Of a stretch of DNA of 64,000 nucleotides, positions 1 to 29,417 are shown one piece after another. The notes beneath the pieces are model-generated. The model saw only the letters and a program-made list of their open reading frames with translations. It was not told the origin of the DNA and did not search any database. This DNA is from Pseudomonas sp. MM223 (GTDB taxonomy: Bacteria; Pseudomonadota; Gammaproteobacteria; Pseudomonadales; Pseudomonadaceae): assembly GCA_947090765.1 (NCBI GenBank), contig OX352322.1:4137501-4201500 (forward strand), written 5' to 3'. A program made the translations under genes and the position numbers. Each line of letters begins with the position of its first letter. The first letter of the stretch is position 1.

Positions 1-899
1 GTGGTGTGGAAGTCACCACGGTAGGCCTCGGCCACGCCCTGGCTGCCCGCGCGGGTTTCTTCTTCGAGGATGCTGTTGAGCGCTTCGCGGTTACCGGCCG
101 CCCATTCGGCGGCACGCAAGGTCTGGGCAAGGAAGCGCACCACCAGGTCGAAATGGTTGTCGAGCAGGCGTTGATGCACGGTGATCGGCCGCGGTGTGCC
201 GTTGTTGATGCGGTGGCGTGGGTCCGGCAGCAGGTCGAGGTCAACGCCGACCACCAGGCCTAGCCGGCGTGCGGCATCGGCGGCGGCCGCGCCCTTCACA
301 TACACGGCATCGACTTCACCACGCGCCAGGTATTCCAGCCCCGACCACAGCCGCTGCAAGCCCAGCGCCGGGGTGGCGGCACTGGCCTGGTCGAGCAGGG
401 CCACTTCCACCAGTTGCACGTCATCCAGGTGCAGGCCTGCCGAGGTCAGGGCACCCTTGTAACCGTGAAGGCTCATGGCCCGGGCAATGCTGCCCGGCCG
501 GCTGTCGCCCCAGGCCGGCAGCGCCAGGCGTTTGCCGCGCAGGTCGGCGGCGCTGCGAATGGCGGAATCCGGGCGAACCAGAATGGTTTGCCATTCTTCG
601 ATCCAGGTCAGGCCAATCAGCCGGCTGGGCGAGCCGGCGGCACGTGCCGCCAGCGCCGGCACGTTGCCGCCTTCGCGAAACAGCCCGGGCAACTGGTGAT
701 CGTAGTGGTGATGGCCAAGCTGGCGGGCCTCCTGCAGGGTCGAGACGGGCAAGCCATCGGCGGCGAACTCTTGCTCCAGCCAGCCGAGCTTGTAGGCCAG
801 GCCTGAGGCGGTGGGCACCGGGCAGCGGGTGAACCAGATGCGCTCCAGGGCAGAGGGGTCGTCTGCCAGGCGTTTTGCTGTAGGGGTTACGAGGGACAT
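1..899 (-). CDS. DszB-like desulfinase / SBP-fold protein, C-terminus cut by window edge
   Basis: Reading leftwards from the ATG at 899, an open frame of 299 codons runs off the window. AAGGAG precedes the ATG by about 7 bases. The N-terminus (MSLVTPTAKRLADD) has no signal peptide, which argues against a periplasmic binding protein. IWFTRCPVPT places a cysteine at residue 26, and HYDH...FREGG gives His65 and Arg75 with the H-x9-R-x-G-G spacing of DszB, the 2-hydroxybiphenyl-2-sulfinate desulfinase (Cys27, His60, Arg70 from memory). It is paralogous to the two genes at 7676 and 8737 but more distant from them than they are from each other. I infer a cytoplasmic C-S cleaving enzyme or sulfinate-binding protein. 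The usual automatic name would be ABC transporter substrate-binding protein. The gene is divergent from the SfnB-like gene, with its own sigma-54 promoter. Confidence 0.75.
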   Translation of the reverse strand, partial: MSLVTPTAKRLADDPSALERIWFTRCPVPTASGLAYKLGWLEQEFAADGLPVSTLQEARQLGHHHYDHQLPGLFREGGNVPALAARAAGSPSRLIGLTWIEEWQTILVRPDSAIRSAADLRGKRLALPAWGDSRPGSIARAMSLHGYKGALTSAGLHLDDVQLVEVALLDQASAATPALGLQRLWSGLEYLARGEVDAVYVKGAAAADAARRLGLVVGVDLDLLPDPRHRINNGTPRPITVHQRLLDNHFDLVVRFLAQTLRAAEWAAGNREALNSILEEETRAGSQGVAEAYRGDFHT

Positions 900-932
900 G
901 GGGTGGCTCCTTGGGCGTCGTGCAAGCACCAT

Positions 933-948
933 TGCAGTGTGCGTGCCA
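933..948 (-). promoter_or_regulatory. Sigma-54 promoter of the leftward DszB-like gene
   Basis: On the minus strand the sequence reads TGGCACGCACACTGCA. It has GG at -24 and GC at -12 in the exact spacing of the RpoN consensus (TGGCAC-N5-TTGCA). It lies about 35 bases upstream of the ATG. Confidence 0.75.
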
Positions 949-1055
949 ACCGCTGGAGGCCTTGATTTACCTGGGATTGGTTGTTGGGCCGGCGGGCCGG
1001 GTGCTTGGCTGGGAGCAGGATTGCGGGCGGGGTGTTGCCAGATCAGCAGAGTGGC

Positions 1056-1071
1056 TGCTGCTGGGGCAGCA
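1056..1071. promoter_or_regulatory. Candidate enhancer (UAS) palindrome shared by divergent promoters
   Basis: TGCTGCTGGGGCAGCA. Its reverse complement is base-for-base identical to the element at 9938-9953, and closely related copies lie at 6378-6393 and 15182-15197. All four sit upstream of sigma-54 promoters, as binding sites for an enhancer-binding protein (SfnR-type) would. Confidence 0.6.
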
Positions 1072-1112
1072 AAGGGCTTTGGAAGCCACGCAGGCTGGGG
1101 CCTGAAGAGGGG

Positions 1113-1128
1113 TGGCAAAGATATTGCT
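1113..1128 (+). promoter_or_regulatory. Sigma-54 promoter of the SfnB-like gene
   Basis: TGGCAAAGATATTGCT has GG/GC dinucleotides in the RpoN spacing and lies about 90 bases before the ATG at 1216. Confidence 0.65.
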
Positions 1129-1215
1129 CTAGGGCATGGGACCGCGGTGTGGCCATCGCGGGTTTACCCGCGAACCAGGCGCACTGGCCCTATCAGACAA
1201 ATCCGAGACCCCTCC

Positions 1216-2448
1216 ATGAGTGCCATAGAACCCTCCCCCGCCCGCCGCCTCACCAGCGAAACCGAAGCCATCGAAACCGCCCGCCAGGTCGCCGCGCAAA
1301 TCGCCGAACTGGCCGCCGACCCGCGCAACAACGGTCAGCTTCCCCACCGCCAGGCGGAGTTGCTGTCCAGCAGCGGCCTGACCGCCATCGCCGTGCCGGC
1401 CGCGTTCGGCGGCCTCGGCGCTTCGGTGCAGACCGTGGTCGAAACCGTGCGCCTGGTCTCCACCGCCGACGGCGGCGTCGGCCAGTTGCTGCAGATTCAC
1501 AACGTGATGCTGCGCGGCATCTTTACCGGCTACCCCGAAGAAGTACGCGACCGGCTGATTGCCGACGTGCTCGCCGGCAAGCGCTTCGGCAACGCCCTGG
1601 CCGAAGTCGGCGGCAAGAACAAGTTTGCCCTCAAGACCCGCGTCGAGCGCCGCGCCGATGGCCAGTGGGTACTCAACGGCAGCAAGTTCTACTCCACAGG
1701 TTCCTACCTGGCCGAGTGGATCTCGTTGACCGCCGCCAGCGAAGACGGCGGCGTCGGCGTGCTGCTGCACCGTGATGCTCCCGGGCTGACCCTGGTGGAC
1801 GACTGGCAAGCGTTCGGCCAGCAGAATTCGGTGAGTGGCACGGTGAACTTCGACAACATCGTGCTCGACGAGCGCTACCTGACCCGCCGCAGCGGGCCGA
1901 TGAAGCGCACGGGCCTGACCTTCCCGCAGATACTCCACGCGGCCATCGATACCGGCATCGCCGCTGGCGCATTGCAGGCGGCTGTCGAGTACCTGCGCGA
2001 GCATGCCCGGGCCTGGGTGGAAAGCGGCGTCGAACGCGCCAGTGACGAGCCGCATGTTATTCGTCAGATCGGTGAGTACGCTGTGGCGCTGCGCGGCGCC
2101 GAGTCGGTGCTGCGCGAGGCGGCGCGGGTGTTCGACGACCACGAGCGCGACCCGGAGAACAAGGCGTTGCAGGATGAGCTGATCCTGTCGGTGGCCACCG
2201 CCCGTGCGCATTCCGATGCGGCCTCGTTGAACATTTCCAGCGACCTGTTCTCGCTGCTGGGGGCCAGCGCTTCGTTGAGCAAGTGGAACCTCGACCGCTT
2301 CTGGCGCAATGCCCGGGTACACACCACCCACGACCCGATCCGCTGGCGGCTGCACAACGTGGGCAACTACTACCTGAACGGGGCTGATCCGGGGGAGTAC
2401 ACCGCAGTGCTCAATGCCAAGGAGAGCCAGGGCGCTACACGCCGTTGA
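1216..2448 (+). CDS. SfnB/DszC-like acyl-CoA dehydrogenase-fold flavoprotein
   Basis: 410 residues, the usual length of the SfnB family of sulfur-acquisition oxidoreductases. The frame is open further upstream, but that part overlaps the sigma-54 promoter, so I take the ATG at 1216 (MSAIEPSPARRL), although its ribosome site is weak. Acyl-CoA dehydrogenase-type N-terminal helices, a middle beta domain (GGKNKF...LNGSKFYSTGSYLAEW) and a C-terminal helical domain ending in RVHTTHDPIRWR are recognisable. DszC, the flavin-dependent dibenzothiophene monooxygenase, has the same fold, so S-oxygenation of an organosulfur compound is plausible. With the SsuD-like and DszB-like genes it forms a DszABC-like set. 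The substrate is unknown. Confidence 0.85.
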   Translation: MSAIEPSPARRLTSETEAIETARQVAAQIAELAADPRNNGQLPHRQAELLSSSGLTAIAVPAAFGGLGASVQTVVETVRLVSTADGGVGQLLQIHNVMLRGIFTGYPEEVRDRLIADVLAGKRFGNALAEVGGKNKFALKTRVERRADGQWVLNGSKFYSTGSYLAEWISLTAASEDGGVGVLLHRDAPGLTLVDDWQAFGQQNSVSGTVNFDNIVLDERYLTRRSGPMKRTGLTFPQILHAAIDTGIAAGALQAAVEYLREHARAWVESGVERASDEPHVIRQIGEYAVALRGAESVLREAARVFDDHERDPENKALQDELILSVATARAHSDAASLNISSDLFSLLGASASLSKWNLDRFWRNARVHTTHDPIRWRLHNVGNYYLNGADPGEYTAVLNAKESQGATRR

Positions 2449-2452
2449 ATCC

Positions 2453-2512
2453 ATTTGGGGCCGGGGGGCGCGTCGCGCCCCATTCGCGGCACAAGGCCGC
2501 TCCTACAAGGGG
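2453..2512. repeat. REP-like palindrome, type B arm
   Basis: GGGCGCGTCGCGCCC hairpin followed by TTCGCGGCACAAGGCCGCT, the arm that recurs in inverted pairs through the window. It lies between the SfnB-like gene and the exporter operon and may terminate or insulate transcripts. Confidence 0.6.
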
Positions 2513-2540
2513 CGGTGTCGCATTCTGATCGAGCATCTAC

Positions 2541-4316
2541 ATGAACCACCCGCTTCTTCGGGCATTGGCCATCTACCGCGAAATGCCTTGGCGCTTTGCT
2601 CTGGTCGCTGCCTTGTACATTGCCGGCAACCTCGGCCTGGCCTGGCAACAGTGGCTGATCGGCCATGCGGTCGATGATGTCAGCGCTGGCCGCGCCGTGC
2701 TGCGCCTGGCCGACGGCAGCCTGGACGCCAGCGTGGCCTGGCACTGGCTGTGGCTGCTGCTGGCCATCGCCCTGGGCCGCGGCCTGCTGCAGTATGCTGC
2801 CGCCGTGCTATCGCTGGTGCTCAGCCAGGCCCTGCTCACGCGCCTGCGTGAACGCATCCTCAGCCAGGTGCAGCGCCTGCACCTGGGCTACCACTGGCAC
2901 CATGGCATGGGCGAACTGGTCACCCGCACCACCCGCGATGCCGACAAAGTGCGTGACGCACTGATCACCTTCTGGCGGCAGATCATCGAAACCCCGCTGG
3001 TGGTGATCGTCGCGGTGGGCCTGTTGAGCTGGTACGACCCGCTTCTGGGCCTGGTGCCACTGCTGCTGACCGGCGCCGGATTATGGCTTTTCGTGGTGCA
3101 GACCGATCGCCTGGTCACCCTCGACCGCGCCGTGGGCGCCGCCTATGATCAGGTCAGCCAGGACCTCGCCGAAGGCATCGGTGGCGTGCGGGTGATCAAG
3201 GCATTTGGCCTGGAACAGCAACGCATTGCCCGCTTCGCCCGGCAGGTCGAGGTGTTCACCGGCCATGCCCGCGCCGCCCTTGCCTACGCCAGTTCGCGTA
3301 TTCCGCTGCCGCAGGCGGTGGTGGCGCTGGGGCATGTGTGGATCCTGGTGTACGGTGCCCATCGCGTGGCCGCCGGCGCGCTGGGCATCGGCGAGCTGGT
3401 CACTTCGCTGCTGGTGGCCACCACGCTGGTGTTCCGCATCGAAGGCATTGGCCGGGTGATGCAGACCTTCGCCGATGCCCGCGCCAGTGCCGAGCGCATC
3501 TGGCAGCTGCTGGACGAACGCCCGGCCATCGTCGGCGGCCATGCCACCCTGCCCGCAGGGCCGTTGGGGTTGAAGCTGAACCGGGTGCAGGTCAGTGCAG
3601 CAGAAGCTGGCAGGCCTGTGCTGCAGGACTGCTCGCTAACCCTGCTGCCCGGTGAGGTGGTGGCGCTGGTCGGCGCCACCGGCACCGGCAAAAGCTTGCT
3701 GGCCAGCCTGCTGCCACGTTTGGCCGATGCACAGCACGGCAGCGTGCAGGTCGGTAGCGATACGGCCGGTTGGCACGACGTGCGCGACCTCGACCTGGCC
3801 GACCTGCGCCGCCGCGTGCAAGTGCTGCCGCAGGAAAGCTTTCTGTTCTCCGACAGCCTGGCCGCCAACCTGCGCATGGCCGCAGCGCAGGCCAGCGACG
3901 CCCAGTTGCGTGAAGCGTTGCGCCTGGCCGCCGCCGAGGATGTACTGGAACGCCTGCCCCATGGCCTCGACACCCCACTGGGCGACCGCGGCGTGACCCT
4001 GTCCGGCGGCCAGCGCCAGCGCCTGTGCCTGGCCCGCGCGCTGCTGGGCGCGCCGGACGTCCTCTGCCTGGACGACGCCACCAGCGCCCTGGATGCCCTT
4101 GGCGAACGCCAGGTGCTCAACAACATCCGCCACCTGCACAGCGCCAGCGGCCAGGGCCCGACCTTGCTGCTGATCACCAGCCGCCTGTCCACCTTGTTGC
4201 TGGCCGACCGCGTGCTGATGCTGGAAAACGGCCGCATCAGCGCCAACGGCAGCCATGCCGAGCTGTGCGCGAACAACGCCCATTACCGCGACTTGCTGGG
4301 GATCGACCATGACTGA
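2541..4316 (+). CDS. ABC exporter half-transporter with degenerate ATP site (subunit 1)
   Basis: 591 residues: a six-helix type IV exporter membrane domain (about 20-310), then a nucleotide-binding domain (about 340-590). Walker A is GATGTGKS and the signature is LSGGQRQ. Walker B reads LCLDDATS with Asp in place of the catalytic Glu, and the switch His is replaced by Ser (ITSRLST). Loss of Glu and His in one subunit is the mark of heterodimeric exporters such as TM287/288. The gene overlaps the next one by 8 bases (ATGACTGA), so the two subunits are translated together. Its place inside the sulfur island suggests efflux of a desulfurised product or of a toxic sulfur compound. That is inference only; multidrug export is the default reading. 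Confidence 0.85.
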   Translation: MNHPLLRALAIYREMPWRFALVAALYIAGNLGLAWQQWLIGHAVDDVSAGRAVLRLADGSLDASVAWHWLWLLLAIALGRGLLQYAAAVLSLVLSQALLTRLRERILSQVQRLHLGYHWHHGMGELVTRTTRDADKVRDALITFWRQIIETPLVVIVAVGLLSWYDPLLGLVPLLLTGAGLWLFVVQTDRLVTLDRAVGAAYDQVSQDLAEGIGGVRVIKAFGLEQQRIARFARQVEVFTGHARAALAYASSRIPLPQAVVALGHVWILVYGAHRVAAGALGIGELVTSLLVATTLVFRIEGIGRVMQTFADARASAERIWQLLDERPAIVGGHATLPAGPLGLKLNRVQVSAAEAGRPVLQDCSLTLLPGEVVALVGATGTGKSLLASLLPRLADAQHGSVQVGSDTAGWHDVRDLDLADLRRRVQVLPQESFLFSDSLAANLRMAAAQASDAQLREALRLAAAEDVLERLPHGLDTPLGDRGVTLSGGQRQRLCLARALLGAPDVLCLDDATSALDALGERQVLNNIRHLHSASGQGPTLLLITSRLSTLLLADRVLMLENGRISANGSHAELCANNAHYRDLLGIDHD

Positions 4317-6150
4317 TGCGCAGCACACCCTCGCCAGCGATATCGACATCGAACAACGCCTGGCCCGCCAGGCGCTGGACCGGGGCATGTTCCACCGTTT
4401 GTTGCCGCTGTTGCAGCCCATTCGCGGGCAGATCCTTGCAGTGATCGGCATCGAGCTGCTGCTGGTATTTACCGTGTTCCTGCGCCCGTGGTTCGTGCGT
4501 GAACTGTTGGACAAGGGCCTGGTGCCCAGCGCCGATCACTGGCTGCTCGACGAGCGCCTGGTGCTGTGGTTGGGCCTGGGCCTGGCCGCGAGCTGGCTGG
4601 GGCGTTTTTTGCTGGCCGGGGTGTCGCAATTCATTGCCGGGCACGCGGCAATCGGCGTGCTCAACGCCCTGCGGGTGAACGTGTTCGCCCATGTGCAGGC
4701 GTTGTCGGTGAGCTACTTCGACCAAACCCGTGCCGGGCGTATCATTTCCCGTGCCGACCGTGACGTGGATGCGCTGGAGCCGTTGCTGGTGCAGGGCCCG
4801 CCCGAGCTACTTGGCGCCTTGCTGCGCTGCGGCCTGGCAGCGGTAATGCTGTGGCGCATCGACCCCAGCTTTTTCTACAGCCTGGCTGCCACGGTACCGT
4901 TGCTGGCCGTGGCCACCTGGCGCTTCAAGCGGGTATCGCAGCGCAACTGGGCCAAGGTGGCCGAGCAGCGCAGCCGCTTCACCGCCCACCTGGTGGAAAG
5001 TGTGAGCGGGGTGCGGCTGATCCAGCAATGCGGGCAAGAGCAGCCCAACCAGGCACGCTACCGGCGCTTGCTGGAAGACTTCAACCAGGCGCTGATCCGC
5101 GGCAGCCTGCGTGCCGGCTGGTTCGCCCCGTTTACCGCCTTGCTCAGCACCGCCGGCATGGCTGTGCTGCTGCTGGTCGGCGCCCATGGCCTGGCCGAGG
5201 GCAAAGTCAGCGTGGGCCAGGTGGCCGAGAGCCTGTTCTATGTGTTCCTGTTCCTTGGCCCGCTGCAAGAGCTGTCGGACCTGTTTGAACGCTATGCCAC
5301 TGGCAGTGCCTCGGCCCAGCGTATCTTCCTGTTGCTCGACACCCGCCCACAGGTGCTCGACCCACCTGCTCCTCAAGCACTGGCCAGGGCAAAAGGCCAG
5401 GTCGACTTTGAATCGGTCGGCTTTGCCTATGCGCCAAACAGCCCCCGGCCAGTGATCGACGGGCTCAACCTGCATATTCGCGCCGGTGAAGTGCTGGCCA
5501 TCGTCGGCCCCTCGGGGCATGGCAAGAGCACGCTGGTGCAGTTACTGACGCGCTTCTACGAAGTGCAGCACGGCGCCGTAAAGCTGGACGGCATCGACCT
5601 GCGTGCGCTGGCCCAGCATGACTTGCGGCGCAACGTGGGTGTAGTGCTGCAAGACAACGTGCTGTTCAGCGGCAGCATCCTCGACAACCTGCGCCTTGCC
5701 GCGCCCGACGCAGACGATGCACAGCTGGTGGCTGCGGCCCGTGAGCTGGGTGCAGACGAGGTGCTGGAGCGCCTGCCGCAGCGCTACCACACCGAAGTCG
5801 GCCCGCTGGGCGCGCACCTGAGCCATGGCCAACGCCAGCTGGTGTGCCTGGTGCGGGCCTACCTGGCCGACCCGGCAGTGCTGGTGCTGGACGAAGCCAC
5901 CTCGGCGGTGGACGTGCACACCGAACGGCGTATCCAGCGTGCGCTGCGCAGGCTGTGCCAGGGGCGCACGGCAATCATCATTGCGCATCGGCTGGCGACT
6001 ATCCGCGATGCGGACCGGATTGCCGTGGTACGGCACGGGCAAGTGGTGGAGCAAGGGCCGCATGCTGAATTGATCGGCCGCGGTGGTGCTTATGCAGCGC
6101 TTTATGACGCTTATCTGCGCAGTGCCGGGGAGGCTATGACCGAGGCATGA
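4309..6150 (+). CDS. ABC exporter half-transporter, catalytic subunit (subunit 2)
   Basis: 613 residues. I place the start at 4309 (MTDAQHTLASDIDIEQ), where the ATG overlaps the stop of subunit 1. The frame is open 54 bases further up, but only inside the previous gene. A membrane domain (about 30-330) precedes an ATPase domain with Walker A GPSGHGKST, Walker B LVLDEATS with an intact Glu, and switch His in IAHRLAT. The signature is altered to LSHGQ. In a heterodimer this signature faces the degenerate Walker B of subunit 1, so both changes fall in the same ATP site and support pairing. The family resembles the MdlAB/SmdAB multidrug exporters; the substrate is unknown. Confidence 0.87.
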   Translation: MTDAQHTLASDIDIEQRLARQALDRGMFHRLLPLLQPIRGQILAVIGIELLLVFTVFLRPWFVRELLDKGLVPSADHWLLDERLVLWLGLGLAASWLGRFLLAGVSQFIAGHAAIGVLNALRVNVFAHVQALSVSYFDQTRAGRIISRADRDVDALEPLLVQGPPELLGALLRCGLAAVMLWRIDPSFFYSLAATVPLLAVATWRFKRVSQRNWAKVAEQRSRFTAHLVESVSGVRLIQQCGQEQPNQARYRRLLEDFNQALIRGSLRAGWFAPFTALLSTAGMAVLLLVGAHGLAEGKVSVGQVAESLFYVFLFLGPLQELSDLFERYATGSASAQRIFLLLDTRPQVLDPPAPQALARAKGQVDFESVGFAYAPNSPRPVIDGLNLHIRAGEVLAIVGPSGHGKSTLVQLLTRFYEVQHGAVKLDGIDLRALAQHDLRRNVGVVLQDNVLFSGSILDNLRLAAPDADDAQLVAAARELGADEVLERLPQRYHTEVGPLGAHLSHGQRQLVCLVRAYLADPAVLVLDEATSAVDVHTERRIQRALRRLCQGRTAIIIAHRLATIRDADRIAVVRHGQVVEQGPHAELIGRGGAYAALYDAYLRSAGEAMTEA

Positions 6151-6156
6151 CCTGAG

Positions 6157-6330
6157 GGCCCTATCGCCGGCAAGCCAGCTCCCACAGATACCCCACAGGC
6201 CTCAGGTTCAGTGGAGATCCTGTGGGAGCCAAAGGCCTCATGCCGAGTGAGCATTGTGGGAGCCACAGGTCCCTACAGGCCTTAGGCCCGGTGGAGATCC
6301 TGTGGGAGCTGGCTTGCCGGCGATAGGGCC
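6157..6330. repeat. Inverted pair of type A REP-like elements
   Basis: The left arm at 6157-6187 (CTATCGCCGGCAAGCCAGCT core) is matched by its reverse complement at 6300-6330. The same arm recurs near 9813, 12353, 41040 and 52367. Confidence 0.8.
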
Positions 6331-6377
6331 AGTGCAGGCTAACCCTGCTGCTGCTTCAACATCAATTGCTGCCCGAT

Positions 6378-6393
6378 TGCTGCCACAGCAGCA
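6378..6393. promoter_or_regulatory. Candidate enhancer (UAS) palindrome
   Basis: TGCTGCCACAGCAGCA, a TGCTG-N6-CAGCA palindrome, about 70 bases upstream of the -24/-12 promoter at 6448. One of four such elements in the island. Confidence 0.6.
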
Positions 6394-6447
6394 CCCCACC
6401 CCATCACCACCCAGTAAACCCCCACTCCACAGGCGCTGAACCACCCA

Positions 6448-6463
6448 TGGCACAGCCGTTGCA
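6448..6463 (+). promoter_or_regulatory. Sigma-54 promoter of the monooxygenase/DszB-like operon
   Basis: TGGCACAGCCGTTGCA matches the RpoN consensus TGGCAC-N5-TTGCA at every fixed position. It lies 43 bases before the ATG at 6506. Confidence 0.85.
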
Positions 6464-6505
6464 CCAGCCTCCCCACTCGCACACCCTCCCCCTTCAGGAG
6501 CCCCC

Positions 6506-7657
6506 ATGACCACCGAATTCTTCTGGCGCCTGCCCTTGGGCACCGACGGCCCGCAGTTGTCCACCGACCGCCACAACCGCGGCAACCCCACGCACCGCCC
6601 CGGCAACATCGCCCCTGGGCGCCTGCCCGATGGCCAGGCCGATGGGTTCACCTACATCGACTACATCGCCCAGGTGGCCAAGGCCGCCGAGCTGGCCGGG
6701 TTCGAAGGCGCGTTGCTGCCCACCGGCCCAGAGCCGTGGATTGCAGCCGCCGCGCTGGCCCGCGAAACCCGGCGTATCCGCTTCCTGATCGCCTTCCAGG
6801 CCACCTGGACCCTGCCCGCCTACGCCGCCCAACAAGCGGCAATCCTGCAAAACCTCAGCGGTGGCCGGCTGGACTGGAACATCATCACCGGCGGCAACCC
6901 GGCCAGCCAACGGGCCAATGGCGACTTCCTGGAGCATGACCTGCGTTACAAGCGCACCGGCGAATTCCTCGACGTGATCCAGGGCCTGTGGACCCAGGAA
7001 AAGTTCTCGTACGAAGGCGATATCTACCGCCTGGAAAACGGCAGCCTGCCGCCAGGCCTGCAACACGAACGCAAACCAGGCGTGTACTTCTCCGGGTTTT
7101 CCGATGCCGCGCTGGACGTGGCCGCGCGCCACGCCGATGTGTACCTGAACTGGGCCGAGCCGATCGACAAGCTCAAGCCGCATATCGAACGGGTGCGCGA
7201 ACTGGCCGACAAGCAAGGTCGCACGGTGCGTTTCGGCCTGCGTGTCGACCTGTTCGCCCGCGAGACCGAAGAACAAGCCTGGCGCGAGCTGCGCCAGCAG
7301 TTCGAGCGCCTGGAGGGCAAGGCCAGTGCCAGCGCCAAGGGCTTCGTGACCGGCTCGGACTCTGTCGGCGGCGCTCGCCAGGCGGCTTATCACCAAGGCT
7401 TGCAGGGCTTCGACGAGCTGGTCCTGGCACGCAACCTGTGGGCCGGTTTCGCCAAGGCCAAGCCCGGCCCCACCGTGGGCCTGGTGGGCAGCCATCAGAA
7501 CATCGCCGAACGCCTGGCCGAATACCGCGATGCCGGTTTCAGCACCTTCATCCTCGCCGCCAACCCACACCTGGAAGAGGCCCTGCGCATCGGCCAGGAA
7601 GTGTTGCCGCTGGTGCAACAGGCTGCCACCACCACACCCTTGCAGGCCAGTGCCTGA
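6506..7657 (+). CDS. LLM-class FMNH2-dependent monooxygenase (SsuD-like)
   Basis: 383 residues, the length of alkanesulfonate monooxygenase SsuD (381), preceded by AGGAG. Family landmarks are LIPTG-like LLPTGPEPW, LSGGRLDWNIITGGNP, YFSGFSDAALDVAARHADVYLNW, NLWAGF, and the C-terminal NPHLEEALRIG. Such enzymes use reduced flavin from a partner reductase to cleave C-S bonds or oxygenate sulfur compounds. By eye, SsuD Cys54 has no counterpart, His228 aligns with Asp (GLRVDLFARE) and Arg297 with Lys, while Arg226 is kept. The substrate may therefore not be a simple alkanesulfonate. It is the first gene of a three-gene operon with two DszB-like proteins, 18 bases apart. No flavin reductase gene is present in the window. 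Confidence 0.87.
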   Translation: MTTEFFWRLPLGTDGPQLSTDRHNRGNPTHRPGNIAPGRLPDGQADGFTYIDYIAQVAKAAELAGFEGALLPTGPEPWIAAAALARETRRIRFLIAFQATWTLPAYAAQQAAILQNLSGGRLDWNIITGGNPASQRANGDFLEHDLRYKRTGEFLDVIQGLWTQEKFSYEGDIYRLENGSLPPGLQHERKPGVYFSGFSDAALDVAARHADVYLNWAEPIDKLKPHIERVRELADKQGRTVRFGLRVDLFARETEEQAWRELRQQFERLEGKASASAKGFVTGSDSVGGARQAAYHQGLQGFDELVLARNLWAGFAKAKPGPTVGLVGSHQNIAERLAEYRDAGFSTFILAANPHLEEALRIGQEVLPLVQQAATTTPLQASA

Positions 7658-7675
7658 ACCCGACCGGAGCTGAAC

Positions 7676-8740
7676 ATGAGCCACCCCCTCGATACTCTGT
7701 GGTACACCCGCTGTCCGGTGCCCACCGGCCTGGGCATTGCCGTGCAGCAAGGCTGGCTGCAGGAAGACCTGGCCGGCCTCGGTACCCAGGTGCAGTCCCT
7801 GCGTGAAGCCGACCAACAGGCAGTGCGCGAATCGCACTTCGACCACAGCCTGCTCAATTCGGTACGCCACGGCGGCAGCATCCCGGCCATCTGGGCCCGC
7901 GCCCAGGGCCGCGATACCCGCGTTATCGGCCTGTCGTGGGCCGATGAGGCGCAATTGATATTGACCCGGCCAGACAGCGGCATCCACACCGTGAAAGACC
8001 TCAAGGGCCGCCGCTTCGGCCTGCCCGACTGGGCCGCGGCACAGATCGACTTCACCCGTGCCCAGGCCCTGCGCGGGCTGGAAAACGCCCTCAAGCTCGC
8101 AGGGTTGCAGGTGGGCGACGTGGACTTGGTCAATTACCGCTACGACGGCACCTTCAGCGACCGCCCCGTGCGCAATGTGGCCGGTACGCCGGTGTCCAGC
8201 ACCCAGAGCGAAGGCCGCAACCTGGAACTGGCCGGCCTGTTGCGCGGCGAGGTGGACGCGATCTTCCTCAAGGGCGCCAGCGCCGTGCAGCTGGCCCACG
8301 CCTTTGCCCTGCACACGGTAATCGACACCGGCAGCCACCCCGACCCACTGATCCGCAGCAACAACGGCACGCCACGCACCCTGGCGGTAGACAGCCACCT
8401 GCTGGCGCAGCACCCGCAGGTGGTACGCACCCTGCTCGGTTCGGTGCTGCGTGCCGAACGCTGGGCCCACCAACACCCCGACGAAACCCGCCGCTACCTG
8501 GCGCGGGAAACCAACAGCAGCGAGTACTGGGTACAAGTGGCTTACGGCGCTGACGCCCACCTGCGCCTGAGCACGCGCCTGGACGAACAGGCCATCGATG
8601 CCTTGCAGGACTTTGTCGAGTTTCTCAAGCGCTGGCGCTTCATCCCGGCGCGCTTCGAGGTACGCGACTGGATCACTCGCCAACCACTGGACCAGTTGCT
8701 GGCCCCCCTCCCCATGGACAGGAAACCCGTTACCCCATGA
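7676..8740 (+). CDS. DszB-like desulfinase / SBP-fold protein, Cys-containing paralogue
   Basis: 354 residues, close to DszB (365). The N-terminus MSHPLDTLWYTRCPVPTG has no signal sequence, so the product should be cytoplasmic. Cys13 lies in RCPVPT like DszB Cys27 (SNCPVP), and SHFDHSLLNSVRHGG supplies His54 and Arg64 with the same 10-residue spacing as DszB His60/Arg70. All three catalytic residues of the desulfinase are therefore present. The bilobal periplasmic-binding-protein fold explains the common label of aliphatic sulfonate ABC transporter binding protein. I favour a sulfinate desulfinase acting on the product of the upstream monooxygenase. It overlaps the next paralogue by 4 bases (ATGA). 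Confidence 0.8.
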   Translation: MSHPLDTLWYTRCPVPTGLGIAVQQGWLQEDLAGLGTQVQSLREADQQAVRESHFDHSLLNSVRHGGSIPAIWARAQGRDTRVIGLSWADEAQLILTRPDSGIHTVKDLKGRRFGLPDWAAAQIDFTRAQALRGLENALKLAGLQVGDVDLVNYRYDGTFSDRPVRNVAGTPVSSTQSEGRNLELAGLLRGEVDAIFLKGASAVQLAHAFALHTVIDTGSHPDPLIRSNNGTPRTLAVDSHLLAQHPQVVRTLLGSVLRAERWAHQHPDETRRYLARETNSSEYWVQVAYGADAHLRLSTRLDEQAIDALQDFVEFLKRWRFIPARFEVRDWITRQPLDQLLAPLPMDRKPVTP

Positions 8741-9795
8741 CCAAGCTCCTGGAAACGCTCTGGTACACCCACAGCCCCGTGCCCACCGGCCTCGGTATTG
8801 CCGTGCAGTCGGGGCGCCTGGCCGAGGCCTTTACGCCGTTCGGCACCAATATTCAATCGCTGCGCGAGTCCAGCGAACGCGAGGTGCGTGAAGCCCACTA
8901 CGACCATCACCTGCAGAACTCGGTGCGCCACGGCGGCAACATCCCGGCAATCTGGGCTTACGCCAGCGGCGTCGAGACCCGCGTACTGGGGCTGTCGTGG
9001 AGCGATGAGGTGCAGTTGATCCTCACCACCGAAGAAAGCGGCGTACGCAGCATTCGCGACCTGAAAAACCGCCGCTTCGGCATACCCAAGTGGGCCAACG
9101 TACAGATCGACTTCACCCGCGCCCAGGCCCTGCGCGGGCTGGAAAACGCCCTGAAACTCGAAGGCCTGGCGGTAGCCGATGTAGAGCTGGTCGACTACCC
9201 CTACGGCGGCACCTACAGCGACGATGCCAAGCAGCACCTGTACGGCGCCGAAGTGAGCCTGGACACCAGCCGCGTCAGCCGCCGCAACAATGAGCTGATC
9301 GGCCTGCTGCGGGGCGACATCGACGCCATCTTCCTGAAAGGTGCACATGCGGTGCACCTGGCCCACGAGTTCGGCCTGCGCGTGGTGGTCGACACCGGCA
9401 GCCACCCCGACCCGCTGATACGCAGCAACAATGGCACCCCGCGCACGCTGACCGTGGACCGGCACCTGCTGGAAAACCACTTCGATGCCAGCCGTACGCT
9501 GGTCGACACAGTGCTGCGCACCGAGCAATGGGCCTGGGCCAACCCAGAAGAGACCCGGCGCTTTCTGGCGCGCGAGCTGAACACCAGCGAGTACTGGGTG
9601 GCGGCGGCCTATGGCGACGATGCCCACCGGCGCTTGCGCACCACCCTGGACAGCCGCTCGATCGAGGCGCTGCAGGACTTTACCGAGTTCCTGTTCAGGT
9701 GGGGGTTCATACCGCGGCGTTTCGATGTGCGGGAGTGGATTGACTTTCGCGTGCTGGAGAGTGTGATCGGTTCGACTTCGCGCTTGGCCGTTTGA
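8737..9795 (+). CDS. DszB-like paralogue with Ser in place of catalytic Cys
   Basis: 352 residues, an obvious tandem duplicate of the preceding gene: shared LWYT-x-x-PVPTGLGIAVQ, VRHGG, DFTRAQALRGLENALKL and DTGSHPDPLIRSNNGTPRTL. Here the residue matching the DszB cysteine is Ser13 (codon AGC, THSPVPT), whereas His54 and Arg64 are kept. There is no signal peptide. It may be a catalytically altered partner subunit, a substrate-binding or chaperone protein, or an enzyme with serine chemistry. The ATGA overlap suggests translation coupled to its Cys-bearing twin and possibly a hetero-oligomer. It is the last gene of the operon; a REP pair follows. Confidence 0.8.
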   Translation: MTKLLETLWYTHSPVPTGLGIAVQSGRLAEAFTPFGTNIQSLRESSEREVREAHYDHHLQNSVRHGGNIPAIWAYASGVETRVLGLSWSDEVQLILTTEESGVRSIRDLKNRRFGIPKWANVQIDFTRAQALRGLENALKLEGLAVADVELVDYPYGGTYSDDAKQHLYGAEVSLDTSRVSRRNNELIGLLRGDIDAIFLKGAHAVHLAHEFGLRVVVDTGSHPDPLIRSNNGTPRTLTVDRHLLENHFDASRTLVDTVLRTEQWAWANPEETRRFLARELNTSEYWVAAAYGDDAHRRLRTTLDSRSIEALQDFTEFLFRWGFIPRRFDVREWIDFRVLESVIGSTSRLAV

Positions 9796-10038: not shown

Positions 10039-10054
10039 TGGCACAGTCCCTGCT
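10039..10054 (+). promoter_or_regulatory. Sigma-54 promoter of the first TonB receptor
   Basis: TGGCACAGTCCCTGCT keeps TGGCAC and the -12 TGCT in RpoN spacing, 42 bases before the ATG at 10097. Confidence 0.75.
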
Positions 10055-10096: not shown

Positions 10097-12340
10097 ATGC
10101 ACCAGCTCAGTCCACTCGCCCGCCAGATCAGCCTCGCGCTGCTACTGGCCGGCACCGGCAGCCAGGCCATTGCCGCCAACGATGACAACAAGAACGAACC
10201 GGCCCTGGAAACCGTCACGGTCACCGCCCAGCATCGCGAGCAGACCTTGCAGGAAGTCCCGGTAGCCGTATCAGCCATCAAAGGCACCAGCATCACCGCC
10301 GATGGGGTGCGCTCGATGGGCGACATCACCACCTTCGTGCCCAACGCCTCGGCCAAGAACCCCGACGGCGACGGTCGCCCGCGCTGGTACATCCGCGGCC
10401 TGGGCACCGGCGACACCGGCGCGGCAACGGTCTTCCCGGTAGGCATCTACGCCGATGACGTCTACCTCAACGCCCCCATCGCCGGCGGCGGGCCGCTGTT
10501 CGACCTGGAACGCATCGAAATCCTGCGTGGGCCACAAGGCACCCTGTATGGCAAGAACACCACGGCCGGCGCAGTGAATGTGATCTCGAAGAAGCCCACC
10601 TTCGACACCGACGGCTACGGCACCGTCGGCTTCGGCAGCAAGAACGAACGCATCGTCACGGGTGCCATTGGCGGCGCGCTGGTGGATGAAAAACTGGCCG
10701 GGCGAGTTGCGCTGTATTCCGAGGAGCGTGACGGTTTCCAGAACAACGACTTCGACGGCAACACCTATGGCGACGTGAACAAGAAGGCCATCCGCCTGCA
10801 GTTCCTGGCCCAGCTCAACCCAGACCTGGACGCCTTGCTCAAGGTGCACAGCCGCCAGTTCAAGGGCGACGGCAGCAACGGTTCGCTACCGGTAGGCCGC
10901 TATTACAACGTCGGCTACGAACGCCCGCATGGCCGCGACATCTCGCTGAACGTCAACGAGGACTACCGCCTGGACCACGATGGCGCCTCGCTGACGTTCA
11001 ACTACTACCTGGGCGACTACACGCTGACCTCGATCAGCGCCTACGACTACATCCGTAACCGCTCTACCAGCGACGCCGATTACACCCCCTACGAGGTCAA
11101 CGGCGCGTCGATCACCGACAACAGCTACCGCCAATGGTCGCAGGAATTTCGCCTGGCCTCGCCGGAAGACCGACCACTGCACTGGCTGCTGGGTGCGCAC
11201 TACTTCCACGAAGACCTCGACAGTTCGGCACAGCGGGTGGTCACCCCCGGGCCGACGCCCAACGGCACCGGCTCGAACCAGGTGGGCACCACGGCGTTCC
11301 GCGATATGGGCTTCGACCACCGCACCGACAGCTATGCGCTGTTCGGCAACCTGACCTACGACTTCACCGACGACTTCAGCGTCACCGGCGGCCTGCGCTG
11401 GACCCAGGAGAAGAAGGATATCGACCTGGACCTGGTGCAACTGACCCGCGCCACCGCCAATGGCCCGCTGGTCCCGCTGGGCGGCGTGGGCACCAACGGC
11501 AACCGCCACGAAGACAAGACCTGGGAAGCCTGGACCTACGACCTGACGCCCGAGTACCGCATCAACGACAACCTGCGGGTGTTCTTCCGCTACGCCCACG
11601 GCTTCCGCTCGGGCGGCTTCAACACTGGGCTGTCGACCAGCCTGGCGCAGCTGACCACGGTCGACCCGGAAGAGCTGGATGCCTACGAGCTGGGGCTGAA
11701 GTCGGAGTGGTTCGACCGCCGCCTGACCGTCAACGCCAACCTCTTCTACTACGACTACTCCGACATCCAGGTGAACCTGCTGACGGTGAACAACGGCGTG
11801 CTCACCACCGCACTGACCAACGGCGCCAAGGGCAAGGTCAAGGGCGCGGAGCTGGAGATCGAAGGCCAGCCGACCGAGCGCCTGCACGTGCGTGCAGCGG
11901 TGTCGTTCCTGGACACCGAGTACACCGACTTCAAGAACACCAACCCTACCACTGGCGCGGTGACCGGCGACTACAGCGGCAACAGCTTCGTGCGTTCGCC
12001 GCGCAACGTGGTGTCGCTGGGTGCCGACTACACCATCCCGCTGGAAGTGGGCGGCAAGCTGGTGGCAGGGGGTGATGTGAGCTTCCGTGACAAGGAGTAC
12101 TTCCTGGCCGACCGCCAGAGCAGCGCCGACGAAACCCTCAGCCAGCCCCACTACACCTTGGCCAACGCCCGCCTGAGCTGGTTCAGCCACGACGACAAGC
12201 TGAGCGTGACCGGTTTCGTCAACAACCTTACCGACCGCCGCTACCAGGTACATGGCCGGCCCAACGGTCCCGCCGGGCAGTACGTGATCACCTACGGCGA
12301 CCCACGCACCGTCGGGCTCAGCGTTACCAGCCGCTTCTAG
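10097..12340 (+). CDS. TonB-dependent outer membrane receptor (sulfur-regulon)
   Basis: 747 residues. A signal peptide (MHQLSPLARQISLALLLAGTGSQAIA) is followed by a TonB box-like ETVTVTAQ, a plug domain with GVYADDVYLNAP-like and EILRGPQGTLYGKNTTAGAVN motifs, and a 22-strand barrel ending in the aromatic SRF. It imports a ligand across the outer membrane using TonB energy. There is no N-terminal STN signalling domain and no FecI/FecR pair beside it, and it has its own sigma-54 promoter, so control by sulfur supply rather than iron is likely. Uptake of a sulfonate, sulfate ester or sulfone conjugate is inferred from context. Confidence 0.88.
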   Translation: MHQLSPLARQISLALLLAGTGSQAIAANDDNKNEPALETVTVTAQHREQTLQEVPVAVSAIKGTSITADGVRSMGDITTFVPNASAKNPDGDGRPRWYIRGLGTGDTGAATVFPVGIYADDVYLNAPIAGGGPLFDLERIEILRGPQGTLYGKNTTAGAVNVISKKPTFDTDGYGTVGFGSKNERIVTGAIGGALVDEKLAGRVALYSEERDGFQNNDFDGNTYGDVNKKAIRLQFLAQLNPDLDALLKVHSRQFKGDGSNGSLPVGRYYNVGYERPHGRDISLNVNEDYRLDHDGASLTFNYYLGDYTLTSISAYDYIRNRSTSDADYTPYEVNGASITDNSYRQWSQEFRLASPEDRPLHWLLGAHYFHEDLDSSAQRVVTPGPTPNGTGSNQVGTTAFRDMGFDHRTDSYALFGNLTYDFTDDFSVTGGLRWTQEKKDIDLDLVQLTRATANGPLVPLGGVGTNGNRHEDKTWEAWTYDLTPEYRINDNLRVFFRYAHGFRSGGFNTGLSTSLAQLTTVDPEELDAYELGLKSEWFDRRLTVNANLFYYDYSDIQVNLLTVNNGVLTTALTNGAKGKVKGAELEIEGQPTERLHVRAAVSFLDTEYTDFKNTNPTTGAVTGDYSGNSFVRSPRNVVSLGADYTIPLEVGGKLVAGGDVSFRDKEYFLADRQSSADETLSQPHYTLANARLSWFSHDDKLSVTGFVNNLTDRRYQVHGRPNGPAGQYVITYGDPRTVGLSVTSRF

Positions 12341-12532: not shown

Positions 12533-14980
12533 ATGCCCCACCACACCCCCTTGGCCAGCGCCATCGCCCTGGCCATCGCCGGCCTCGCCGTGCCCGCCTT
12601 TGCCGCCGAACCCAACGACCGCCTCGACACCGTGGTTGTGGTCGGCACCCACCGCAGCGACGTCACCGCCTTGCAAAGCGCCGCCCCGGTCGACGTATTG
12701 AGCGGTGAAAAGCTCCAGGAAACCGGTGCCAGCGACCTGTCCGCGGCACTCACCGCGCTTTCGCCCTCGTTCAGCTTCCCGCAGTCGCCTCAGGGCGCCT
12801 TTGCCGGCTCCATCGCCCAGGGTGCCTCGCTGCGCGGCCTGGCGTCCGACCAGGTGCTGGTGCTGGTCAACGGCAAGCGACGCCACACCAGCGCCAACGT
12901 TACCCGCCAGGGCCTGGTCAACGCCCGTGGCGCAGCAGCCGTGGACCTCAGCCTGATCCCGCTGTCGGCCATCGAACGCGTGGAAATCCTGCGCGACGGC
13001 GCTGCCGCCCAGTACGGCTCGGACGCCATCGCCGGGGTGATCAACATCGTGCTCAAGGAGCGCGACGAAGGCGGTAACGCCGGTTACCGCTTCGGCGGCT
13101 ACAAGAAAGGCGACGGCCTGCAACGCAAGCTCAGCGGCTGGAAAGGCTTTGCCTTGCCCAATGACGGCTTCCTCACCCTGGCCTTCGACGCAGGCTCCCA
13201 GGACCCGGCCAGCGACACCCGCGACGACAACCGCCTGTTCTACCCCGGCTCCACCAGCATCGACACCGCGCGCGAGCAAAACAACCGCTACCGCAACTGG
13301 CGCTGGGGTTCGGGCAATGTCTCGGACCAGTACAACTTCACCGCCAACGCCGAAATGGGTTTAGGCGAGGGGTTGAGCGCCTACGGCTTCGCCACCTATG
13401 CGCACAAGAACACCGACGCCGAGAACTTCTTCGACCCGCCCACCACGTTGCGCAACAACTACGGCAGCGTAGCCCTGGCGCGCTACCCGGACGGCCGCCT
13501 GCCAGTCACCCGCTACGGCCTGGAAGACTTCGCCGTCACCGGTGGCCTGCGTTTCGAAGACGAGACCTTGGGCAACTTCGACCTGGCGCTGAACTACGGT
13601 GACAACCGAGTCGACTCCACCGACCGCAACGCCATCAACCCCAGCTGGGGCACGGCCAGCCCCTCGACCATCTACACCGGCCGCCGCGAAGCCGACCAGA
13701 CCAACCTGACCCTGGACTGGACCCGCGACTTTGCCAACGACTGGCTGTTCAAGCCGTTGACCGTTTCCGCCGGGCTGGCCTGGCGCCAGGAAAACTACGA
13801 CCTCAGCGAGGGCGACGCAGCCGGCTGGTCCAACGGGCCGCTGTTCAACACCATCGACCCCATCAGCGGCCGACGCATCCCTGGCTACTACTCGGGCATC
13901 ACCCAGGTCGATGCCGTGTCGCTGGACCGCCGCGTGATCGGTGCCTACTTCGATGTCGAAGCCCAGCTGACCGAAAAATTCCAGGCCGGCGTTGCGGTGC
14001 GCAGCGAGCATTACTCTGACTTTGGCGACACCACCAACGGCAAGCTGTCGCTGCGCTACGACTTCACCCCGCAGATCGCCGCGCGCGCCAGCGCCAGCAC
14101 CGGCTACCGTGCGCCCTCGCTGGTGCAGAGCGGGTTGTCGTCGTTCAGTGTGCAGGTGGTGGAACAGCCGCCGGGCAGTGGCAACTGGGTCGAAGTGCAG
14201 CAGCGCACCCTGCGGGCCGACAGCCCGGAAGCGGCCCTGCTTGGCGGCAAGTCGCTGAAGCCTGAGGAGTCGACCAACTTCTCCGTGGGCCTGGTCTGGC
14301 GGCCATTGCCTAACGCGTCGGTCACACTCGACGCCTACCGTATCGACATCGACAACCGCATCACCCTGTCCGACCAGCTGCCTGCAGCGGTGGTGGGCCC
14401 GATCTTCGCCGGTACCCCCTATGCCAACATCCAGAGCGCAGCGTTCTACACCAACATTGCCGACACCCGCACCGATGGCTTCGAGCTGGCCGGGCATTAC
14501 CAGCTGGATGTAGGCCGCTGGGGGCGCGTGGACTTCAACGGTGGCTACGCGCGTAACAACACCCGCATTACCGGGCTGGACAATGTGGGCGGTATCCCTG
14601 GCAACCAGATCATCGGCCGCAACACTCAGGGGTTGATCGAAGACGGCACCCCCGAGGACAAGCTGACCCTCAGTGCCAACTGGCTGTATGACGGCTGGAG
14701 TGTCACCGTGGCCCAGCGCCGTTACGGTGAATGGAAGAACCGCAACGCTGCCAACCCGACGCTGGACCAGACCTTCAGCCCGCAATGGGTGACCGACCTG
14801 GACGTGTCGTTCCGCTTCGACCTGGGCCTGACGTTGTCGGCGGGCGCCATCAACCTGTTCGACAGCCACCCGGACAAAGCGGAGGGTGCGCAGTTGTATG
14901 GCGTGCCGAAATACTCCATCACCAGCCCGGAAGGCGCGCAGGGGGCGTTCTACTATACCAGCGTGAGTTACGACTTCTGA
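12533..14980 (+). CDS. TonB-dependent outer membrane receptor
   Basis: 815 residues. A signal peptide ends at AFA-AEPNDR, with a TonB box-like DTVVVVGTH after it. The plug has LRGLASDQVLVLVNGKRRH and VEILRDGAAAQYGSDAIAGVINIVLK, typical of the BtuB/Cir-like branch. The barrel closes with YTSVSYDF. It resembles the first receptor only at family level, so this is not a recent duplication. It lies between a sigma-54-driven receptor and a sigma-54-driven importer operon, which suggests a role in the same sulfur uptake route. Confidence 0.87.
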   Translation: MPHHTPLASAIALAIAGLAVPAFAAEPNDRLDTVVVVGTHRSDVTALQSAAPVDVLSGEKLQETGASDLSAALTALSPSFSFPQSPQGAFAGSIAQGASLRGLASDQVLVLVNGKRRHTSANVTRQGLVNARGAAAVDLSLIPLSAIERVEILRDGAAAQYGSDAIAGVINIVLKERDEGGNAGYRFGGYKKGDGLQRKLSGWKGFALPNDGFLTLAFDAGSQDPASDTRDDNRLFYPGSTSIDTAREQNNRYRNWRWGSGNVSDQYNFTANAEMGLGEGLSAYGFATYAHKNTDAENFFDPPTTLRNNYGSVALARYPDGRLPVTRYGLEDFAVTGGLRFEDETLGNFDLALNYGDNRVDSTDRNAINPSWGTASPSTIYTGRREADQTNLTLDWTRDFANDWLFKPLTVSAGLAWRQENYDLSEGDAAGWSNGPLFNTIDPISGRRIPGYYSGITQVDAVSLDRRVIGAYFDVEAQLTEKFQAGVAVRSEHYSDFGDTTNGKLSLRYDFTPQIAARASASTGYRAPSLVQSGLSSFSVQVVEQPPGSGNWVEVQQRTLRADSPEAALLGGKSLKPEESTNFSVGLVWRPLPNASVTLDAYRIDIDNRITLSDQLPAAVVGPIFAGTPYANIQSAAFYTNIADTRTDGFELAGHYQLDVGRWGRVDFNGGYARNNTRITGLDNVGGIPGNQIIGRNTQGLIEDGTPEDKLTLSANWLYDGWSVTVAQRRYGEWKNRNAANPTLDQTFSPQWVTDLDVSFRFDLGLTLSAGAINLFDSHPDKAEGAQLYGVPKYSITSPEGAQGAFYYTSVSYDF

Positions 14981-15259: not shown

Positions 15260-15275
15260 TGGCACAGCTCTTGCG
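15260..15275 (+). promoter_or_regulatory. Sigma-54 promoter of the importer operon
   Basis: TGGCACAGCTCTTGCG matches RpoN -24/-12 spacing and sequence. It lies 35 bases before the ATG at 15310. It also shows that the longer frame starting at TTG 15271 is not the true start. Confidence 0.78.
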
Positions 15276-15309
15276 ATACACCTCTACACTCTGCTTCCCA
15301 AGGCCAGCC

Positions 15310-16062: not shown

Positions 16063-16072
16063 GGAAGCTGCG

Positions 16073-16828: not shown

Positions 16829-16839
16829 AAGGCCCGACC

Positions 16840-28933: not shown

Positions 28934-29417
28934 TGCAATTGCCCTCGATCTTTCGGGAGAAATCACAGGGCAACAGGGTCCATCCCGCGCCCAGTCAGTG
29001 TTGACGTGCGCAGTTGTTGTTTCGGTTTTTTGTAGATTCGAGAGTGAACGCGCTTCCACAGTGATCGCGCAAACCTTCGGAAACAGAGCAAGTCAGTTGC
29101 CCCACACGGACCGTGTTCAGATTCGTTACAGGTCCGAATACATCAGACTAAAGTCGTAGGCGAAACCCTTGTCAATATCTCGTCAAAAAAATAGCCACCC
29201 ATGAGAATGCGTTGCAACTCGCTGTTTTAAAGAGACTTATGAAAAGTTCAAAGAATTTATAGAGCAAAAAGATATTACCGAATGTTTCGTTGCAACCTAC
29301 GCTGCTGCTTATAACAAGACCGCAGCGGCCAACCGCCTGCGGGCCGACCAGAAGCCACGACTACCGCTGTACGGGGCGCCGCAAGGGCTCCCCGTTTTGT
29401 GAAAAGGGAGGCCTTCG
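28934..29417. other. Divergent intergenic region, AT-rich centre
   Basis: 484 bp between pepA and its secretion operon. About 29150-29300 is much richer in A and T than the surroundings, with runs such as CAAAAAAATAG and GAGCAAAAAGATATT. That suggests promoters or a silencer-type (H-NS/MvaT) target. A partial hairpin GGGGCGCCGCAAGGGCTCCCC followed by GTTTTG lies at about 29375-29400, then GGGAGG as ribosome site of the ABC gene. I could not assign -35/-10 boxes with confidence. Confidence 0.5.

Follow-up and report, generated by a model that had tools for sequence, protein, structure and literature searches.

DszB-like proteins with and without the catalytic cysteine in a putative sulfur-starvation island of Pseudomonas sp. 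MM223

Genes of the locus

The window analyzed here is a stretch of 64 kb from one chromosome of Pseudomonas sp. MM223 (positions 4137501-4201500). It contains three genes, called A, B and C in the following, whose products resemble the desulfinase DszB. We regard A and B as probable cytoplasmic sulfinate desulfinases of the DszB type, i.e. cofactor-free C-S lyases, within a sulfur-starvation regulon, and put the probability of this assignment at roughly 70%. Gene C is a conserved sulfur-free sister. It has the same pocket residues except that the cysteine is exchanged for serine, and the residue preceding this serine is histidine.

B and C lie directly behind the gene of an SsuD-like flavin monooxygenase and form a joint operon with it, in which the stop codon of B and the start codon of C overlap as ATGA. 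The 3' end of gene A lies 163 bases beyond the left edge of the window. In its own direction, A is followed by genes for a class II aldolase and an SsuD-like protein. A, B and C are the three strong members of the family in the genome; three more matches are weak (E = 1.6e-6 or worse). All features are listed in Table 1.

Table 1. Features of the MM223 window discussed in the text (aa, amino acids; nt, nucleotides; ORF, open reading frame; ABC, ATP-binding cassette).
Feature	Position	Strand	Basis and remarks
Gene A, DszB-like, Cys type (C26, H65, R75), 353 aa	1..899 (= L009:17838-18899)	-	ORF, motif, best PDB match
Sigma54-type site TGGCACGCACACTGCA	933..948	-	Pattern search; 33 nt before gene A
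SfnB/DszC-like flavoprotein	1216..2448	+	TIGR04022 score, best PDB match DszC
ABC exporter-type protein 1 of pair	2541..4316	+	ORF; type assigned by eye from sequence
ABC exporter-type protein 2 of pair	4255..6150	+	ORF; real start possibly further downstream
Sigma54-type site TGGCACAGCCGTTGCA	6448..6463	+	Pattern search; 42 nt before SsuD-like gene
SsuD-like flavin monooxygenase	6506..7657	+	NCBIfam and PDB matches; 0 Cys, Met at start only
Gene B, DszB-like, Cys type (C13, H54, R64, G66, G67), 354 aa	7676..8740	+	Sequence, predicted fold
Gene C, DszB-like, Ser type (S13, H54, R64, G66, G67), cysteine-free, 352 aa	8737..9795	+	Sequence, predicted fold
Sigma54-type site TGGCACAGTCCCTGCT	10039..10054	+	Pattern search; 42 nt before first TonB receptor gene
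TonB-dependent receptor, 747 aa, 0 Cys, 2 internal Met	10097..12340	+	ORF, type assigned from sequence
TonB-dependent receptor, 815 aa, 0 Cys, 1 internal Met	12533..14980	+	ORF, type assigned from sequence
Two SsuC-like permeases and ABC ATPase	15271-16062, 16073-16828, about 16840-17625 (together 15271..17625)	+	

Relationship to DszB

By sequence, the nearest solved structure for A, B and C is DszB, ahead of the sulfonate-binding proteins, and the homology covers the full length. For A, DszB is the top match in the PDB (E = 1.6e-15). For the predicted folds of B and C, DszB is again the nearest solved structure over the full length. Thus, the first-pass annotation was right to place the three proteins closer to DszB than to SsuA. 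With the NCBIfam model for SsuA (TIGR01728), A, B and C reach 67.3, 86.6 and 84.3 bits, all under the cut-off of 163.5 bits. Pfam NMT1 (gathering score 20.5) is matched above its cut-off by A (32.4) and B (37.5); for C no match was obtained at E 0.001.

For counts across the family, 248 distinct members were pooled from the collected loci, all with more than 190 bits against the family profile. On this scale the DszB of the dszABC operon on plasmid pMyong1 reaches 135 bits and binding-protein-like ORFs at most 63 bits. A single ORF with 125 bits (L139) is located next to a fragment and appears to be part of a family member that has been split.

The features shared with DszB (PDB entries 2de2 and 2de3) are the full-length fold, His60, Arg70 and RxGG, the missing export signal, the monooxygenase neighbors, the low content of Cys and Met and, in A and B, Cys27. 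In contrast, Ser25 is replaced by Thr, Tyr63 and Gln65 are not kept, and C carries Ser instead of Cys27.

Active-site residues

In the accessible part of the work on DszB (PMC6100217), Cys27 is described as essential, the enzyme being inactive when it is Ser, and the computed barrier of the C27S variant is higher. His60 enters on a helix that forms upon substrate binding, and the H60Q exchange lowers the activity about 17-fold. Arg70 belongs to the conserved RXGG motif.

The signature His-x9-Arg-x-Gly-Gly is found in A, B and C, and CPVP holds Cys26 in A and Cys13 in B, both as first annotated; C reads SPVP instead. The equivalents of His60, Arg70 and RxGG are therefore kept in all three proteins and that of Cys27 in A and B only. 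Alignment and predicted fold agree on the DszB-equivalent positions of Cys, His and Arg, an agreement at the level of sequence and model rather than of distances. Since C lacks the essential cysteine, the earlier claim of three desulfinases was too strong; for A and B, with their kept catalytic residues, it is probable.

Residues were counted in 246 alignable members, two fragments of the 248 being left out as unscorable. RxGG (R70/G72/G73) is kept in all 246 and His60 in 231. At position 27, 170 members have Cys, 70 have Ser, three have Arg, two have Gly and one has Pro; the share of Cys is in part biased upward because one of the two patterns used for scanning contigs included the Cys motif. 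H-x9-RxGG occurs in one of 56 binding-protein-like controls and, together with CPxP, in none of them. Consequently, the conservation within the family is more than chance. In a sample of 194 best-match proteins having HRGG (two lists limited to the best matches, plus P0001), the motif reads TRC in 120 proteins and THS in 65, with other variants in nine.

Two groups deviate at these positions. A further copy (L016:2177-3268) and six others, all in sphingomonad loci, keep Cys27 and RxGG but have Asp for His60 (7/246). In Massilia and Pseudoduganella, three copies with Arg for Cys27 (L123:6236-7477, L132:4101-5237, L147:5571-6653) form a separate small clade.

Predicted location

That A, B and C lack signal peptides had been proposed from the outset and was borne out. 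The open frame of B comprises 360 codons for 354 residues and has no start codon upstream, which rules out an overlooked signal peptide for this protein. For C, no in-frame upstream start is present in the ORF listing. Gene A has an alternative TTG start upstream, and AAGGAG is found 7 nt before its ATG at position 899. A simple hydrophobicity test flagged none of 237 family members versus 37 of 45 binding-protein controls. This test is a heuristic and not SignalP, and it takes the ATG nearest to the motif as protein start; in 101 of the 237 a start codon farther upstream could put at least 20 residues before the motif. Taken together, the data suggest that A, B and C are cytoplasmic proteins without a recognizable export signal.

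Sulfur content and regulation

Of 16 island proteins examined, 11 are almost devoid of sulfur. As background, 184 ORFs taken from 20 regions of this chromosome were used, with a mean Cys+Met content of 3.24%. A and B have 0.57%, C and the SsuD-like enzyme preceding B have 0 (no Cys and no Met beyond the start), a second SsuD-like protein has 0.25%, the SfnB/DszC-like flavoprotein 0.49%, the TonB receptors 0.27 and 0.12% and the binding protein of the island 0.28%. None of the background ORFs is so poor. The aldolase and a third SsuD-like protein lie at the 1.6th percentile of the background. Contents of 1.5-1.75%, found for the exporters and a fourth SsuD-like protein, are moderately low, and those of the permeases (3.8 and 4.8%) are ordinary. 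The sole Cys of A and of B is the catalytic one. Across the family, 137 of 166 Cys-type members contain no cysteine besides the catalytic one, and cysteine is absent from 58 of 70 Ser-type members. The same sulfur sparing, with a DszB that has one cysteine and no methionine, appears in the accessible part of a proteomic study of Rhodococcus (PMC8557817).

Three sites in the 64 kb match a strict sigma54-type pattern, where 0.39 are expected; none of 100 shuffles contained as many. The pattern was TGGCAC-N5-YTGCW, which we take to be the consensus. A further site lies in the upstream stretch (L009:12340-12355). Among related loci, a strict match within 250 nt was found for 23 of 42 A-type genes and for 11 of 44 SsuD-like/B operons, while the other 19 and 33, respectively, have none; overall, the pattern occurs at 0.008 per 250 nt. 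A stricter pattern with one mismatch allowed gave six sites with 2.65 expected, and six of 100 shuffles equaled this number, which is within chance. One of these sites (15260-15275) lies where the first permease starts in the ORF listing. In P. putida, sulfone genes are regulated by the sigma54-dependent activator SfnR, according to titles in the reference list of PMC8234197. Expression data for the island were not found in the papers examined. Sulfur poverty and sigma54-type sites together suggest a sulfur regulon.

Monooxygenases and gene neighborhoods

The presence of an SfnB/DszC-like flavoprotein and an SsuD-like monooxygenase in the same island, as annotated earlier, was confirmed. The former scores 396.4 bits with TIGR04022, under the cut-off of 430.9; its top PDB match is DszC (E = 1.3e-52), and its gene is not adjacent to B. 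The SsuD-like enzyme reaches 294.7 bits with TIGR03565 (cut-off 518.2) and stays under the cut-off of every NCBIfam model listed. It scores best against alkanesulfonate monooxygenases and not against DszA. In an alignment, it has Asp and Lys at the positions that we take to be His228 and Arg297 of SsuD, and Arg226 is kept.

Gene context was counted in 89 loci, with categories defined by reference matches. A luciferase-like monooxygenase is present in 81 loci, an aldolase in 64, TonB receptors in 57, ABC exporters in 36 and the DszC/SfnB category in 30. In 25 of these 30 the match is to the SfnB/DszC-like gene of the window only. The proposed DszABC-like logic is only partly borne out: the SfnB/DszC-like and SsuD-like genes are present, but the SsuD-like enzyme is not closest to DszA, and the DszC/SfnB category is found in only 30 of 89 loci. 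Immediately upstream of 131 Cys-type genes lies a monooxygenase gene in 55 cases and another category gene in 16.

Individual loci illustrate these arrangements. In Sphingobium, the order A-aldolase-monooxygenase-B-exporter occurs on a single strand. Between DszB-like genes, again in Sphingobium, lies a gene with the annotation Fis family transcriptional regulator (L016:3367-4473), which is a candidate regulator. In Sinorhizobium sp. B11, an SfnG-like monooxygenase gene, a DszB-like gene and an acyl-CoA-dehydrogenase-type gene make up an operon, and the adjoining peptide-type transporter has its own binding protein. The third gene had served as its own reference in the DszC/SfnB category. Its assignment as DszC-like is weakened, since it is 22% identical to DszC and matches an acyl-CoA-type model slightly better than SfnB. 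Farther along the MM223 window, on the minus strand, a very long ORF (18107-29059, 3650 aa) consists, as judged by eye, of two similar large halves with many glycine-aspartate-rich repeats.

Enzyme or binding protein

An alternative to the desulfinase assignment is that A, B and C are the substrate-binding proteins of an SsuC-type importer and reach the periplasm by an unrecognized route. Most named NCBI relatives are called ABC transporter substrate-binding protein. With SsuA/NMT1-type proteins the three share the fold, the Pfam NMT1 match (A and B) and permease genes in the wider island. SsuC-type permeases are present in 60 of the 89 loci, 22 of which have no SsuA-like gene within the stretch examined. 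In the window itself, the permeases have no adjoining binding-protein gene, and they are not next to B and C. On the other hand, 38 of the 60 permease loci do have an SsuA-like gene. In P. guariconensis, a binding protein with hydrophobic N-terminus shares a cassette with a B-C pair and permeases; the transporter therefore need not use B or C. The island of MM223 has one such binding protein, too (L009:1336-2424). Unlike SsuA-type proteins, A, B and C have no recognizable signal peptide, combine RxGG with the Cys (A and B) and score below the NCBIfam cut-off, and the DszB catalytic set is kept. Considering all this, we regard a role as binding proteins of the importer as unlikely.

Besides the permeases, several observations weigh against A and B being desulfinases. 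Identity to DszB is only about 27% and the separating branch is very long, so the substrate may differ. In the family, His60 is replaced in 15 of 246 members (seven Asp, five Tyr and one each Ser, Phe and Leu), and Cys27 is missing in 76. No category gene lies directly upstream of 60 of the 131 Cys-type genes. The binding-protein controls are sulfur-poor as well (mean 0.91%, 31 of 45 without Cys); sulfur poverty thus marks the regulon and not an enzyme. The retention of a single cysteine exactly at the catalytic place, however, argues for catalysis. Finally, the SsuD-like partner could itself release sulfite, which would make a desulfinase unneeded. In the bdsABC operon of Gordonia terrae C-6, as described in the accessible part of PMC3868597, a desulfinase gene occurs with genes of an FMNH2-dependent and an alkanesulfonate-type monooxygenase. 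An SsuD-like partner alone, therefore, does not exclude a desulfinase.

The cysteine/serine gene pair

Gene C, like its clade, has Ser where DszB has Cys27, and it has no cysteine anywhere. C is accordingly not classed here as a DszB-type desulfinase. Pair and locus counts rest on the best 80 of 572 confirmed loci. The 51 Pseudomonas-titled loci among them all contain the Ser gene. A Cys gene directly precedes it in 45, always with Cys first and Ser second (45/45), and B is missing in six; B without the Ser gene does not occur (0/51). In the 29 non-Pseudomonas loci, a B-type Cys gene is present and the Ser gene is absent. Of the six loci without B, five belong to searchable genomes, each of which carries another, A-type member.

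At E 1e-30 or better, DszB-like family members were detected in 37 of 298 genomes of the window's family, taken to be Pseudomonadaceae, and they are rare in broader samples, with 7 carriers among 398 genomes of the phylum and 4 among 385 of another class. Two off-frame matches (G062, G582) were ignored, and weaker matches in G504, G437 and G590 have no motif by pattern. The Ser motif is present in 34 of the 37 carriers; all 34 have a Cys member too, which is of B type in 33. Of the remaining three, the first has two Cys members, the second has Gly at this position and the third has a motif-less fragment.

The C-related Ser proteins form one clade, with a Shimodaira-Hasegawa-like approximate likelihood-ratio test (SH-aLRT) value of 100 in a tree of 92 representatives and support of 100/100 in a second tree with 48 rows. 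Its sister is a Pseudomonas Cys clade in the first tree (SH-aLRT 89) and a non-Pseudomonas Cys clade in the second (98/97); owing to this disagreement we do not claim a timing of the duplication. Two Cys-bearing proteins with the motif THC (P0191, P0194) were considered as a step before Ser. This was rejected, since in the second tree they branch within the Ser clade and appear to have reverted to Cys. P0105 has a B-like body with a Ser-type motif (WYTHSPVP) outside the Ser clade and is possibly a chimera or a product of gene conversion. A separate, independent Ser case exists in Burkholderia (L019).

Median omega is 0.19 for C and 0.27 for B (943 pairs, not independent of one another, from 44 loci; of the 45 pair loci, one was left out for masked bases). 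C is accordingly at least as constrained as B, and its interpretation as a decaying gene was rejected. Eleven sites are fixed differently in the B and C clades (at least 90% in each). Five lie in residues 12-53, namely R12/H12, C13/S13, W27/R27, A49/E49 and S53/A53, where 49 and 53 are on the helix that carries the catalytic His; the remaining six correspond to B residues 122, 192, 214, 274, 279 and 281.

The product of gene C has probably retained the ability to bind ligands of the same class and would be either a partner without catalysis or an enzyme based on serine. In the first case, C would be catalytically dead and act on behalf of B or A by binding sulfinate and either forming a heteromer, holding substrate or regulating the Cys enzyme. 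Since Ser at this position inactivates DszB (PMC6100217, accessible part), and given the ATGA overlap, the invariant order of the tandem pairs and the Cys member in all 34 Ser-bearing genomes of the sample and in the five searchable genomes with an unpaired Ser gene, this is a possibility to be taken seriously, although we hold it to be somewhat less likely than not. All but one of the 70 Ser proteins retain the pocket His, Arg and GG (69/70), and four of the five fixed differences in residues 12-53 are beside the catalytic residue or on the His helix, both of which speak against a dead protein. In the Pseudomonas loci, B was not seen without C and C sometimes occurs behind the monooxygenase without B (6/51), which argues against C being no more than an accessory of B. 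Against full independence of C stands the finding that some Cys member always accompanies it.

C could also be an active lyase without cysteine that employs Ser13 with the neighboring His12 and His54 and acts on a substrate that is different or more reactive. The exchanges R12 to H12 and C13 to S13 go together in 44 of 44 pairs, and the strong constraint, the extreme sulfur poverty and the Ser genes directly behind a monooxygenase without B fit such an enzyme. The inactive C27S variant of DszB with its higher computed barrier (PMC6100217, accessible part) does not. Furthermore, His12 is not universal (TQS, TSS and TNS variants occur), two relatives within the clade have Cys again, six of the 11 divergent sites lie outside residues 12-53, and among the searched genomes none was found with Ser members only. 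We therefore regard a cysteine-free lyase as doubtful. An evolutionary scenario along these lines would be that sulfur-saving selection removed the catalytic Cys after duplication, that Ser, the new His and the kept His and Arg do the same or a related job in a working sulfur-free member of the desulfinase family, and that B was kept for harder substrates. This scenario is speculative and, in our judgment, rather unlikely.

Discussion

For the preferred reading of A and B as desulfinases, we propose the following sequence of events. Flavin monooxygenases would convert an imported organosulfur compound to a sulfinate, which the DszB-like enzyme would hold via the RxGG arginine. The histidine on the mobile helix would close over the bound sulfinate, and the single cysteine would give a proton, or act as nucleophile, so that sulfite is released. 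The analysis establishes the kinship, the predicted fold of B and C, the residues, the absence of a recognizable export signal, the conserved Cys/Ser pairing, the poverty in sulfur and the context of the operon, whereas the reaction, the substrate, the order of steps and the ligand and role of C are inferred.

Among known systems, bdsABC of Gordonia terrae C-6 has a similar arrangement of desulfinase and monooxygenase genes in one operon, a likeness by description and not by sequence comparison; the parts of the paper examined mention no Ser sister (PMC3868597). Comparable by description, again not by sequence comparison, is IGTS8_peg4802 of Rhodococcus, a chromosomal protein named 'SsuA/DszB' and listed with SsuD and Ssu transporter proteins from a sulfate-short culture (PMC8557817, accessible part). 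The SfnG/MsuC/MsuD sulfone pathway of Pseudomonas likewise consists of sulfur-starvation genes with two-component flavin monooxygenases and sigma54-dependent SfnR. In contrast to the route proposed here, it oxidizes methanesulfinate to methanesulfonate and has no desulfinase, as far as described in the accessible part of PMC8234197. The true SfnG of MM223 is located elsewhere in the genome.

The first-pass annotation had presented a desulfinase family as a new reading of these genes, which goes too far. Relatives are already named 2'-hydroxybiphenyl-2-sulfinate desulfinase by JGI and in some NCBI and UniRef entries, and the Rhodococcus name 'SsuA/DszB' points the same way (PMC8557817, accessible part). 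What is new is hence that the Cys/Ser pair is conserved, that one of its members is sulfur-free and that there is evidence for a sulfur regulon. Literature searches at title level, with subscription papers mostly outside their coverage, returned no title concerned with DszB-like proteins as a family or with a naturally occurring Ser variant in Pseudomonas.

Many genes annotated in Proteobacteria as binding proteins of sulfonate transporters may encode enzymes. The way in which sulfur scavenging is deduced from genomes would then change. The Ser of gene C is a natural copy of the change that kills DszB in the laboratory. With a natural C27S version under strong selection, the disputed chemistry of DszB, in which Cys acts as proton donor or nucleophile, becomes directly testable. 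Sulfur economy may here have reached into the active site.

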